Under the pieces are notes generated by a model that saw only the letters and a program-made list of their open reading frames with translations, was not told where the DNA came from and did no database searches. A stretch of 49,871 nt of DNA from Chloroflexota bacterium (lineage in GTDB: Bacteria; Chloroflexota; Limnocylindria; P2-11E), in NCBI GenBank assembly GCA_005882255.1, contig VBEZ01000178.1:1-49871 (forward strand), given 5' to 3'. Every line of letters begins with the position of its first letter. The stretch's first letter is position 1. This document shows, piece after piece, positions 15,714 through 20,553 of this stretch. Made by a program: the position numbers and the translations under genes.

Positions 15714-15812
15714 CCGGCTTCACGCGATCTGTGTCATCGCGATGACGCGGTGCGCCGCCGCCGGAGGTGTAGGCTGCCGACCTCGTGGCGGCGCCACGAA
15801 GGAGGAGCCTGG

Positions 15813-18611
15813 GTGGGCGCGAAGGCGATCTGGCGCGAGGATCTGGTCACCAGCCTGCTCTCGACGCTGCTGGTCATCGGACTCTTCCTCGATGGCTGGA
15901 ACCACATCAATCTGCAGAACGGTGCGCTGGGCGGCTTCTTCACGATCTGGCATGCGCTGCTCTACTTCGGTTTCAACGGCACCGCGCTTTGGGTCATCAC
16001 ACGCAACCCTCACCTCTACGACCGCGGCGCGCGACCCGCTCCGTACTTCCACAAGTTCCTCGGGATCCCGCTGCGCTATCCGCTCGCGATCGGTGGCCTC
16101 GCGATCGGTACCGTCGGACTGTTCGGCGACATCGCGTGGCACGCCGCCTTCGGCGCGGAGACCGGCGTCGCGCGGGTGATCGCGCCGTTCCACCTACTGC
16201 TCTTCGCGGGCGCTGCGGGTCTCGTCTCGGCACCGCTCCGATCGGCGTGGTACGCGCCGCAGTTCTACCCGAGCACGTTGTCGTTCCGCCGCATCCTGCC
16301 GCCGCTGCTCTCGCTGGCCCTCGTCACCTGCGTGGCGGCGTTCATGTTCCAGTGGCTGAACGCGTTCCTCGACTGGACGCCGTCCGTCACGATCGGTCGG
16401 ATCCCACCGGAGCTCGCGGGCGACGCGCGGGTACGAGGGACGACGGAATTCGCCGGCGCCGCACGGATCCTCGTGACCAACCTCATCCTGCTCGCGCCGC
16501 TCTTCCTCGTGATGCGGCGCTGGCGCCTGCCGTTCGGAGGCGCGACCTTCCTCTTCGTCCTCGTGAGCTTCGCCATGAGCGCGCTGACCAGCTTCGATCT
16601 CGGCGCGAGCGTCGTGGCCGCCCTCGTGGGCGGGCTCGTCGCGGACGCGCTGATCGACGCACTTCGACCCGACGCGGCTCGCACGACCGGTTACCGCGCC
16701 GTGGCCGCCGTCACGCCGCTCGTGCTGTGGACGAGCTATTTCTTGATCCTGATCTTCGTCTATCGAAGCCCCTGGCCGTTCGATCTCTGGCTCGGCACGA
16801 CGCTGCTCGCCGCGATCTCAGGCCTGCTGCTGAGCTACATCGCGATCCCTCCGGCGCTCCCGGAGTCGGTCTCCGAAGCTCAAATGCCGATGCGTGACCA
16901 CGCTCGCGCGCTGCGTGTCGGCGCGATGTCCGGGCAGGGAGCGATGGATCTTGGAGGAGGTGGCGACATGGCGACGCAAGAGCCTGTCCCAGAGAAGCGC
17001 ATCAGTCGACGGGGATTCCTCACGGGGCTCGGCATCGGACTCGGCGCCGCGGGAGCGGCCGGCGTCGCGACCGGTGTCAGCCTGGGCCGGACCGAGCTGC
17101 GGCTCTCCGCCACGACCCCGGGCAACTTCAGTCGGATGTTCCCGAATCTACCGCCCTTCTTCGAGGGTCTCCGGCCGGGGGGCGCGACCGATCAGCTCCG
17201 CGACGCCGTACGCGACATCGGCAAGCTTGGCGGTCTTCTGGATGCCAAGGACGCGATCTCCGCCGGCCCGATGGCCCTCATCGCGAACGCCGCGGTCAAC
17301 GGGAACGATCCGCCCACCAATCCCGATAACCCGACGCACACGGCCGGCGTGACCTTCTTCGGTCAATTCATGGATCTCGACATCACGTTCGACAGTCGAT
17401 CGACGCTCGGTGTGCCGACCGATCCGACCACGACGCTCAACGCCCGTGCCGCCGCCTTCGACCTCGACACCATCTACGGACAGGGTCCGTTCGTTACGCC
17501 CTCGTTCTACGACGTCGCCGACCCGGCGAAGCTGCGGATCGAGAACGGCGGCATCTTCGAGGATCTCCCACGCAATCCGGACATGACCGCGATCATTCCC
17601 GATCCGCGCACGGACCAGAACATGATGGTCTCGGGCCTCCACTGCGCGTTCATCCTGTTCCACAACAAGACCGTGGACTACGTGCGCTCACAGCTGGGAC
17701 TCATCGATCCGCCCGCGATCTTCGCGGAGGCGAAGCGCCTCGTGCTTTGGCACTACCACTGGATGATCCTGAATGAGTTCCTGCCGCTGTTCATCGGCCC
17801 GGCGATGCTGAACGACATCCTGACCAACGGTCGGCGTTTCTTCCGGCCCGACATGGGTCAGGCGACGATGCCGATCGAGTTCCAGGGCGCATGCTTCCGG
17901 GTCGGTCACACCATGATCCGCCCGTCGTACCGGGCGAACCTGAAGGGCATGGACGGCAAGCCATTCTTCGGGTTCATCTTCGATCCCGCGCTCGGTGACA
18001 TCACGCCGGCGCCTGGTCTGGATCCGGCTGACCTGCGGAGTGGCTTCCGCGCGCCGCGGCGATTCATCGGGTGGCAGACGTTCTTCGACTTCAAAGACGG
18101 CGAGGTCAAGCGCAACAAGCTGATCGACAACAAGATCTCGACACCGCTGTTCACCCTGCCGCTCGGGGCGATCGCGAGTCACAAGGCGCCGATCGCGCTC
18201 ATGCAGCGCAATCTGTTGCGTCACATCACGTGGTCGATGCCGTCGGGTCAATCGATCGCGCGCGAGATAGGGATCGATACGTTGAGCCCGGCCGATCTCG
18301 AAGAGCTCAAGGGGTACGACATGGATCTCGAGAAGAGCACGCCGCTCTTCTATTACATGCTCAAAGAGTCGGCGCTCGTGCCCAGCTCAGACATCGGCAA
18401 GAACACCGGCGGTTTCCACCTCGGGCCGGTCGGAGGCCGCATCGTGGGCGAGGTCGTCGTGGGTCTCCTGCAGAGCGATCCCGCCTCGTACGTCACGAAA
18501 CAGCCCTCGTGGATGCCGACGCTGCAGAACCCGGGCGCCGGTTTCCGCATGGTCGACTTCCTCACCTTCGCGGGCGTGGACCCAGCGACGCGGCGCACCC
18601 AGCATGCTTGA
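15813..18611 (+). CDS. Fusion: N-terminal polytopic membrane domain plus Tat-motif plus animal-type heme peroxidase domain
   Basis: GTG 15813 with SD ggaggag; about 390 aa with many TM helices; SRRGFLTG twin-arginine motif; peroxidase motifs TFFGQFMDLDITFD, DPRTDQNMMVSGLHCAFILFHNKTVDYV, CFRVGHTMIRPSY. Confidence 0.8.
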   Translation: MGAKAIWREDLVTSLLSTLLVIGLFLDGWNHINLQNGALGGFFTIWHALLYFGFNGTALWVITRNPHLYDRGARPAPYFHKFLGIPLRYPLAIGGLAIGTVGLFGDIAWHAAFGAETGVARVIAPFHLLLFAGAAGLVSAPLRSAWYAPQFYPSTLSFRRILPPLLSLALVTCVAAFMFQWLNAFLDWTPSVTIGRIPPELAGDARVRGTTEFAGAARILVTNLILLAPLFLVMRRWRLPFGGATFLFVLVSFAMSALTSFDLGASVVAALVGGLVADALIDALRPDAARTTGYRAVAAVTPLVLWTSYFLILIFVYRSPWPFDLWLGTTLLAAISGLLLSYIAIPPALPESVSEAQMPMRDHARALRVGAMSGQGAMDLGGGGDMATQEPVPEKRISRRGFLTGLGIGLGAAGAAGVATGVSLGRTELRLSATTPGNFSRMFPNLPPFFEGLRPGGATDQLRDAVRDIGKLGGLLDAKDAISAGPMALIANAAVNGNDPPTNPDNPTHTAGVTFFGQFMDLDITFDSRSTLGVPTDPTTTLNARAAAFDLDTIYGQGPFVTPSFYDVADPAKLRIENGGIFEDLPRNPDMTAIIPDPRTDQNMMVSGLHCAFILFHNKTVDYVRSQLGLIDPPAIFAEAKRLVLWHYHWMILNEFLPLFIGPAMLNDILTNGRRFFRPDMGQATMPIEFQGACFRVGHTMIRPSYRANLKGMDGKPFFGFIFDPALGDITPAPGLDPADLRSGFRAPRRFIGWQTFFDFKDGEVKRNKLIDNKISTPLFTLPLGAIASHKAPIALMQRNLLRHITWSMPSGQSIAREIGIDTLSPADLEELKGYDMDLEKSTPLFYYMLKESALVPSSDIGKNTGGFHLGPVGGRIVGEVVVGLLQSDPASYVTKQPSWMPTLQNPGAGFRMVDFLTFAGVDPATRRTQHA

Positions 18612-18645: not shown

Positions 18646-20553
18646 GTGAGGGATGAGGCGACGCGCTCGGACGAGCGCTCTCCGACCGTGCTCATCGCGG
18701 ACGATGACCGCGCCGTGCGCGCGCTGGTGCGGGTCACGCTCATGGCGCAGGGCTGGCGCGTGCTCGAAGCGACGACTCCGGACGAAACGCTCACCGTCGC
18801 GCGCCGCGAGCATCCGGAGATCGTCCTGCTGGATGTCATGTTCCAGGGGAGCGCGCGCGATGGATTCGTCGTCTGCCGCGAGCTTCGAAGCTCAGGGGGA
18901 ACGCGGGATACTCGCGTGGTCATGCTGACCGCGCGCGACGATGCGGAGAGCCGTGCGTTCGCGAGCGCCGTCGGCGCGACCGCCTACATCGTGAAGCCGT
19001 TCGGGCCGCTCGATCTCGTTCGGATGTTGCGGCTCGTTCTCGATCAGCCCACGTCCGATCCCGGTCTCGGGCTGTTCCTCGTCGACGCCGGTGTGATCCA
19101 ACCGGCGCAGCTCGAGCGCGCTCTCGCCGAGCAGCGTCTCCGTCAGGGCGAACGCGTACCGATCGGCGCGATCCTCACCGAGCTGGGCTTCGCTGATCGC
19201 GCCGATATCGACCGCGCGGTCGAGCGTCAGCGCCGCGCGCGCGACGTTCCTTCGCGCGCGGCGCCCGCGCAGAGACGGATCCGCCTCGTCATCGCCGACG
19301 ACAACCCGATGGTGCGCGAAGGGCTTCGCAGCGCCATCACGACGAGCGACGACCTCGTCACGGTCGGCGTCGCGGCGAACGGGACGGAAGCGCTGCGCCT
19401 CGTCCGCGATCTCGACCCGGATGTCATCGTGCTCGATCACCGCATGCCAGGTCAGCTCGGACTCGATGTGGCCGAACGGCTGCGCGCCGACTCCGACACC
19501 GCGGTCGTCATGTTCACCCTCGATGAGGGCATCCGCGAGCTGGCGCTGGCTTCCGGTGTGGCCGCGTTCGTGCCGAAGGACACGCCGCTTGCGACCCTGC
19601 TCGCTGAGATCCGCCGCGTCGCACGCCCAGCGGCCCCGGCTCCCGCGTCGGAGGAGAGATCCGCCCGCATCGTGGTGACCGCGCGCGGCGTCTCGCGCGG
19701 AGCGTTCGGCGCTCTGGCGCGACGCCGACGAGCGATCCTGACGCTGGCCATCCTGCTGGTCGCCTACGCCGCGGCATTCCTCCTCGCCGAGCCGACATTC
19801 GGCGCGGCCGCCGCGATCGTCTCGATCCTCCCGGTCGCGATCGCGGGCTCGCTTTTCGGGCCGGAGACCGGAGTCGTGGCCGCCCTGCTCGCGGTGGTCG
19901 CGAATCTCGCGCTGTGGGCCGGAACGGATCACGCGATCGGCGAGCCGATCATCCGCGTCGGCGGCAACGGCTTGGGAGCGCTCGCGCTGGTGGGCATCGG
20001 CGCCGGATTCGGAGCGATGCGAGTTCTGCGCGGTCGTTTCGATCCGCATGGCCGGCGACTCGGCGCGATCGCGGAGGTCGCGTTGGCGCTGGCCGCGGGT
20101 CCCACCCCCGACGTGCTGCGCCTTCTCGCCGAGGGCGCGCTGGAGATCGTGCCCGGCGATGCGGCGCTTCTCTACGCCGTCGTTCCGACCGGTGGTCTCG
20201 AGCTCGTCGCGGCGACCGGCGGCGCGCGAACGGTCGTCGGTCAGCGCGAGACGTCCGGCGAGCTCGTGCGCGCGCAGACACAGCGGCACGCCTCCATCTC
20301 CTGGAACGTTGCGAGCGGACCCATCGGACGCGCGGTGCCCGACGCGAAGGGCGCGATCATCGTGCCGATCCCAGGGATGGCCGAAGCCGTTGCCGGTGTG
20401 CTCGTCGTCGCGACCGCGCGACGCCGCGCGTACGGCGAAGCGCACGTGCAGGTGCTCTCCAGCTACGCGACCTTCATCGGCGCGGCCCTGAACGCTCCGA
20501 GTGTGGGGTCCGAGCGAGGCGCGCTGATCTCGCAGTCGGCGGGCACCCGCTAG
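18646..20553 (+). CDS. Multidomain signalling protein: REC - MshEN-like - REC - TM region - GAF-like
   Basis: TVLIADDDRAVRAL...VLLDVMF...YIVKPFGP; LGLFLVDAGVIQPAQLERALAEQRLRQGERVPIGAILTELGFADRADIDRAVERQ; RLVIADDNPMVREGL...VIVLDHRMPG...FVPKDTP; four hydrophobic helices; GAF-like C-terminus. Confidence 0.8.
   Translation: MRDEATRSDERSPTVLIADDDRAVRALVRVTLMAQGWRVLEATTPDETLTVARREHPEIVLLDVMFQGSARDGFVVCRELRSSGGTRDTRVVMLTARDDAESRAFASAVGATAYIVKPFGPLDLVRMLRLVLDQPTSDPGLGLFLVDAGVIQPAQLERALAEQRLRQGERVPIGAILTELGFADRADIDRAVERQRRARDVPSRAAPAQRRIRLVIADDNPMVREGLRSAITTSDDLVTVGVAANGTEALRLVRDLDPDVIVLDHRMPGQLGLDVAERLRADSDTAVVMFTLDEGIRELALASGVAAFVPKDTPLATLLAEIRRVARPAAPAPASEERSARIVVTARGVSRGAFGALARRRRAILTLAILLVAYAAAFLLAEPTFGAAAAIVSILPVAIAGSLFGPETGVVAALLAVVANLALWAGTDHAIGEPIIRVGGNGLGALALVGIGAGFGAMRVLRGRFDPHGRRLGAIAEVALALAAGPTPDVLRLLAEGALEIVPGDAALLYAVVPTGGLELVAATGGARTVVGQRETSGELVRAQTQRHASISWNVASGPIGRAVPDAKGAIIVPIPGMAEAVAGVLVVATARRRAYGEAHVQVLSSYATFIGAALNAPSVGSERGALISQSAGTR

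Follow-up and report, generated by a model that had tools for sequence, protein, structure and literature searches.

What does a protein do that joins two phosphoreceiver domains to a membrane region and a GAF domain, and carries no recognisable output? This question is raised by an open reading frame in the window, that is, the whole 49,871-nucleotide stretch of a Chloroflexota contig that was analysed. From the letters alone, an earlier note had read the gene as a receiver, an MshEN-like segment, a second receiver, a four-helix membrane region, and a GAF-like domain without an output domain, and this reading was borne out by Pfam, profile and fold searches, and hydropathy. The open reading frame starts with GTG, and the domains follow one another in the order given here.

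18646..20553, + strand, whole gene REC-MshEN-REC-4TM-GAF, 635 aa (open reading frame and translation, orthologues, purifying selection)
18682..19047, + strand, REC1, residues 13-134, PhoB/OmpR-type (Pfam PF00072 and NCBIfam PhoB-type matches; columns nearly invariant in the family alignment)
18832..18834, + strand, D63, predicted phospho-acceptor of REC1 (position in the PF00072 fold and conservation)
19057..19245, + strand, MshEN_N four-helix module, residues 138-200 (PilF/PilB/MshE profile matches, AlphaFold model, fold search)
19063..19134, + strand, motif I, residues 140-163, GLGLFLVDAGVIQPAQLERALAEQ (motif check against the PMC5013675 consensus)
19159..19230, + strand, motif II, residues 172-195, PIGAILTELGFADRADIDRAVERQ (motif check and comparison with P335 of PilF GSPII-C, PMC11731258)
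19276..19635, + strand, REC2, residues 211-330, NarL-type (Pfam, NCBIfam, family alignment)
19435..19437, + strand, D264, predicted phospho-acceptor of REC2 (invariant across the family alignment)
19717..20040, + strand, four-TM module, residues ~358-465 (hydropathy in 13 homologues, invariant columns, relatives in GGDEF/EAL proteins and kinases)
20107..20493, + strand, GAF domain, residues 488-616 (PF13185 in 12/13 family members; alpha/beta pattern in the model)

Pfam identified two Response_reg stretches in the 635-aa protein (1e-40), and both receivers have the acidic pair, phospho-acceptor Asp, Thr, and Lys of response regulators, namely D19, D20, D63, T95, and K117 in REC1, and D218, D219, D264, T291, and K311 in REC2. 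According to the NCBIfam scores, REC1 is closest to PhoB-type and REC2 to NarL-type receivers. No known output domain, enzymatic or DNA-binding, was found by Pfam in 13 family members including the 635-aa protein. The loss of a C-terminal kinase or cyclase through a frameshift or an assembly error was considered and rejected, since complete orthologues have the same end. Moreover, a convergent open reading frame in genome G010 terminates 2 bp from the stop of the gene, so that a lost C-terminus would have no room there. The whole-length homologues at 38-92% identity, together with purifying selection in every domain (dN/dS ~0.1-0.25), indicated that the gene is real. The full-length AlphaFold model had a pTM of 0.31, and consequently the inter-domain mechanism is not readable from it. 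A fold search with this model was dominated by receiver domains, with PleD as the top match, and was uninformative on MshEN or the membrane part.

A profile (A3) of the segment between the receivers from 11 family members was searched against the PDB sequences using hmmsearch. The first 13 matches were all GSPII/MshEN domains of PilF, PilB, and MshE, with a PilB match next in fourteenth place, and E-values were 1.8e-24 for PilF (6f8l), 7e-10 for PilB (5zfr), and 5e-9 for MshE (5htl). As a lone sequence, the segment matched PilF at 6.9e-5. AlphaFold modelled the 69-residue segment as four helices with a pLDDT of 85.7, and the best 12 PDB matches of this model in Foldseek were all MshEN/GspE-type N-terminal domains. 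The first of them was 5htl_B, MshE with c-di-GMP (TM 0.70, rmsd 1.5 Å, 36% identity), with E-values of at least 0.06 (0.063 for 5htl_B), which are modest values for a very short query. A predicted MshEN fold of residues 138-200 is well supported by these profile and structure searches, and the MshEN-like assignment of the earlier note was thus upheld in the structure-prediction check. A weak Pfam match of the segment to DUF4388 (3e-4 to 8e-3), covering one helical stretch, was disregarded, since both the profile and the fold searches point to MshEN.

PF05157, the Pfam model of MshEN, had no match in the 635-aa protein, nor at its locus in a genome-wide search. In the REC-MshEN paralogue L062, PF05157 aligns with residues 246-316, which appear to be the C-terminal subdomain, so that an N-terminal-only MshEN module would escape Pfam. 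L062 (8266-9918 on contig C186) is a second membrane-type REC-MshEN protein of the same genome, with a receiver, MshEN, one apparent TM segment, and a FecR domain, and the contig ends within its open reading frame. On contig C100 of the same genome, L063 (3834-5159) encodes GAF-GGDEF followed by a terminal PF05157 match, apparently the C-terminal subdomain alone.

The membrane module comprises four hydrophobic segments (residues 363-381, 385-403, 408-426, and 443-461), which are present in most of the 13 homologues, and its TM3-TM4 loop contains a conserved W-x2-T-x-H-x2-GEP. Arg-rich flanks at both ends of the hydrophobic segments suggest that both protein termini are cytoplasmic. Searching with a profile of the module brought up sensors whose outputs are GGDEF, GGDEF-EAL, HisKA-HATPase, and HD; this profile already contained four of the distant sequences, and L131, L132, L134, L135, L136, and L138 were not in it. 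L132 and L136 exceed the DUF4118 cut-off, and the connection of the family to DUF4118 runs solely through these two relatives. No family member was over the cut-off for DUF4118 itself (PF13493, KdpD-type 4TM), the best value being 0.1 in the rows of the A2 alignment. Behind the membrane module, GAF_2 (PF13185) was found at E<=1e-3 in 12 of the 13 family members, with a best value of 1.5e-8; the match in the 635-aa protein (2.6e-6) scores 28.1 bits, 0.5 bit short of the 28.6-bit cut-off.

Full-length relatives were confined to the genera g1 and g2 among 28 genomes of the same taxonomic family, and there were no further full-length matches outside g1/g2 among 177 genomes of the class. In a scan of 400 phylum genomes that scored the best 8 candidates in each, strong matches covering both REC and MshEN were again limited to g1/g2. 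The relatives found in a contig search were REC-domain matches alone, except for L009, the G013 orthologue. The domains are known, the combination is new, and it is lineage-restricted. The complete architecture was found in 12 of the 16 genomes of g1 and g2 (two truncated by contig ends). MshEN is absent in G011 (REC-REC-4TM-GAF), REC1 and MshEN are absent in G014 (REC-4TM-GAF), and in G001 and G008 a stand-alone REC-MshEN alone was seen. MshEN is therefore not essential to the core, and the domain content of these reduced relatives shows a REC2-4TM-sensor core. A likely history is that a sensor module gained N-terminal receivers in place of a C-terminal output. Between the genera, identity is 60-70% in MshEN, 62-65% in the TM segment, 51-54% in REC2, and 41-49% in GAF. 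A parallel architecture, REC-4TM-PAS without an output domain, is encoded in G026 (L056, 6696-8330). In g2 there are also stand-alone REC-MshEN proteins of ~193-221 aa (L057, 5335-6000; L058, 7350-7931; L059, 8276-8935), which lie in conserved order beside homocitrate/isopropylmalate synthase-like and aconitase-type-subunit-like genes.

The surroundings of the gene include one further feature.

15750..18611, + strand, TM-Tat-peroxidase fusion gene, upstream neighbour, outside the system (Pfam An_peroxidase)

The REC-MshEN-REC-4TM-GAF open reading frame does begin 34 bp past the end of the peroxidase open reading frame (18611), as had been stated, but a link between the two genes, for which co-occurrence across genomes had been proposed as a check, was not supported. 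The peroxidase adjoins the gene in the source genome and its nearest relative G013 alone. G015 has a 78-residue peroxidase remnant at the same site, 82% identical and with a stop, and G012 carries the two genes on separate contigs. In G001 the peroxidase is present, split into two open reading frames, and no REC-MshEN-REC protein was found there; in g2, the REC-MshEN-REC-4TM-GAF gene is flanked by other genes. Since neither synteny nor presence/absence favours it, the partnership was rejected. The fusion itself is hydrophobic in its N-terminal half and contains a Tat-like stretch, RRGFLTG, as well as an animal-haem-peroxidase domain at residues 557-728. The neighbourhoods of the orthologues differ between the genera: downstream in g1 are a deoC-like gene and an aldehyde dehydrogenase gene, and in g2 there is a divergent gene resembling error-prone DnaE, and others converge (all named by reading sequences). 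The long DnaE-like gene of g2 is conserved and divergent from the orthologue (L045, 4797-8117; L046, 8682-12056; L047, 4500-7898; L049, 4840-8310). No kinase or HPt gene was recognised beside the orthologues in the neighbourhoods compared.

Our main reading, to which we assign a probability of about 0.5, is that the protein acts as a non-enzymatic inner-membrane signalling hub, consisting of a 4TM-GAF sensor module with N-terminal receivers and no C-terminal output. That it brings together phosphotransfer, c-di-GMP, and membrane location is still the best guess for its function. In the core form, REC2 would stand before 4TM-GAF, and the full form would add REC1-MshEN ahead of REC2, with the receivers placed in the cytoplasm. 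Histidine kinases would phosphorylate D63 and/or D264, and c-di-GMP would be bound in the MshEN_N bundle that separates REC1 from REC2. This joint state and the membrane and GAF input would change the dimer form and, with it, the binding of a partner, which could be a kinase, a diguanylate cyclase, or a further sensor that has this module. The hub reading is supported by the recurrence of output-less forms (G014, G011, and the REC-4TM-PAS protein of G026), by the intact Asp/Asp/Thr/Lys sets, by the homology and predicted fold of MshEN, and by the purifying selection on each domain. Since GGDEF/EAL or kinase outputs are attached to the 4TM relatives, the protein resembles a sensor module whose output has been replaced by N-terminal receivers. 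For the output-less REC-(PAS/GAF) regulators of archaea, action by protein contacts has been proposed (PMC5847659). Against this reading stand the lack of a recognised kinase beside the orthologues, the neighbourhood that is not conserved between g1 and g2, the loss of the motif-I Arg with the longer spacer, the dispensability of MshEN in G011/G014, and the low pTM of the full-length model.

Whether c-di-GMP takes part depends on the MshEN_N module, which might instead be a structural or docking four-helix bundle without c-di-GMP binding, so that phosphotransfer and membrane/GAF input alone would be integrated; we consider this possible, if somewhat doubtful. The MshEN consensus consists of two 24-residue motifs, RLGxx(LVI)(LVI)xxG...LxxxLxxQ, with a 5-residue spacer (PMC5013675). 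Motif I departs from it solely in having Gly for Arg at its first position, motif II carries Pro1, Thr7, Ala12, Ile17, and Val21, and the spacer of the 635-aa protein has 8 residues instead of 5, which makes binding uncertain. Both motif-initial Arg are absent. Position 1 of motif I is Gly or Ala in all seven full-length forms checked, with spacers of 8-10 residues, and the module may thus have lost c-di-GMP binding; in addition, Gly10 of motif I is replaced by Q in G009, and the last Gln of motif II is lost in G004. PilF GSPII-A retains the fold and does not bind c-di-GMP (PMC12002112). However, PilF GSPII-B lacks both Arg and still binds at 6 nM, and the 324 nM site of the full-length protein has been attributed to GSPII-C, where position 1 of motif II is Pro (P335; PMC11731258). 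In the 635-aa protein, the closing Gln of each motif and the four Gly are retained, and the conservation of MshEN between the genera exceeds that of REC2 or GAF. With both Gln, all Gly, and a motif-II Pro as in PilF GSPII-C, c-di-GMP binding by MshEN_N is plausible from the motifs.

Two other explanations concern the receivers and the membrane part. The protein could be a phosphate sink or phosphorelay intermediate, whose receivers drain or pass phosphoryl groups while tethered to the membrane near kinases. Two intact receivers without an output domain would fit, and output-less receivers working in relays are known (PMC12471899), but this explanation leaves the conservation of the W-x2-T-x-H-x2-GEP loop, GAF, and MshEN unaccounted for and finds neither an HPt nor a kinase neighbour, so that we regard it as distinctly unlikely. 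It is very improbable that the 4TM region is itself an effector, transporter- or channel-like and gated by the receivers. The TM segment is indeed well conserved, and weak ECF S-component similarity was detected in 9/13 rows (best E 2e-4), with the row of the 635-aa protein far below the cut-off. The ECF similarity was set aside as fitting less well than the 4TM relatives, which are placed as sensors N-terminal to GGDEF, EAL, HisKA, and HD outputs, and no transport partner of its own was recognised in the neighbourhoods compared.

Returning to the hub reading, 11 GGDEF and 5 EAL places were found in the genome, which is 81% complete, whereas PilZ had no match and the MshEN_N profile matched strongly at no locus but this one. 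Consequently, the protein could rank among the main c-di-GMP receptors of this organism. A bolder form of the reading, which is unlikely on the whole, would have a single membrane response regulator without enzymatic activity take in both c-di-GMP and the signals of two independent phosphorelays, with the receivers acting on 4TM-GAF, the sensor module serving as output, and the protein being the principal c-di-GMP receptor in a genome without a PilZ match.

The protein shares parts with several known systems. Like the archaeal output-less REC-(PAS/GAF)n proteins (PMC5847659), it combines a receiver with GAF and has no output enzyme or DNA-binding domain, but it differs in its two receivers of different type, the MshEN_N between them, and the 4TM module. 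Bd2402 of Bdellovibrio is a two-component response regulator with MshEN, for which tight c-di-GMP binding was reported (PMC5013675); compared by description alone, it differs from the present protein, in which another receiver, the 4TM module, and GAF are added and the MshEN_C subdomain is missing. The MshEN/GSPII domains of PilF, MshE, and PilB share the tandem 24-residue motifs, the four-helix bundle, and the Gly/Gln positions, with motif II resembling PilF GSPII-C, whereas here there is no ATPase and no MshEN_C, and the motif-I Arg and spacer length differ. Four TM segments with GAF or PAS behind them are also found in the DUF4118/MASE-like 4TM sensors of histidine kinases and GGDEF/EAL proteins, but here no kinase or GGDEF output is present, the receivers precede the TM segments, and the family falls short of the DUF4118 cut-off. 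PleD-type REC-REC-GGDEF proteins, which gave the top match in the full-model fold search, have tandem receivers, whereas here GGDEF is absent, MshEN lies between the receivers, and a membrane module is present. In the literature library searched, no paper turned up on response regulators described as transmembrane or as membrane-bound, -anchored, or -associated.

If c-di-GMP is bound between two working membrane receivers, two-component and c-di-GMP signalling would meet in this protein without an enzyme, in soil Chloroflexota, a group whose signalling has been little studied. Because an N-terminal-only MshEN can escape the Pfam model, counts of receptors of this kind may be too low. Neighbouring genomes contain REC-TM-GAF, REC-REC-TM-GAF, and REC-MshEN-REC-TM-GAF as a natural series, in which the contribution of each part can readily be compared.
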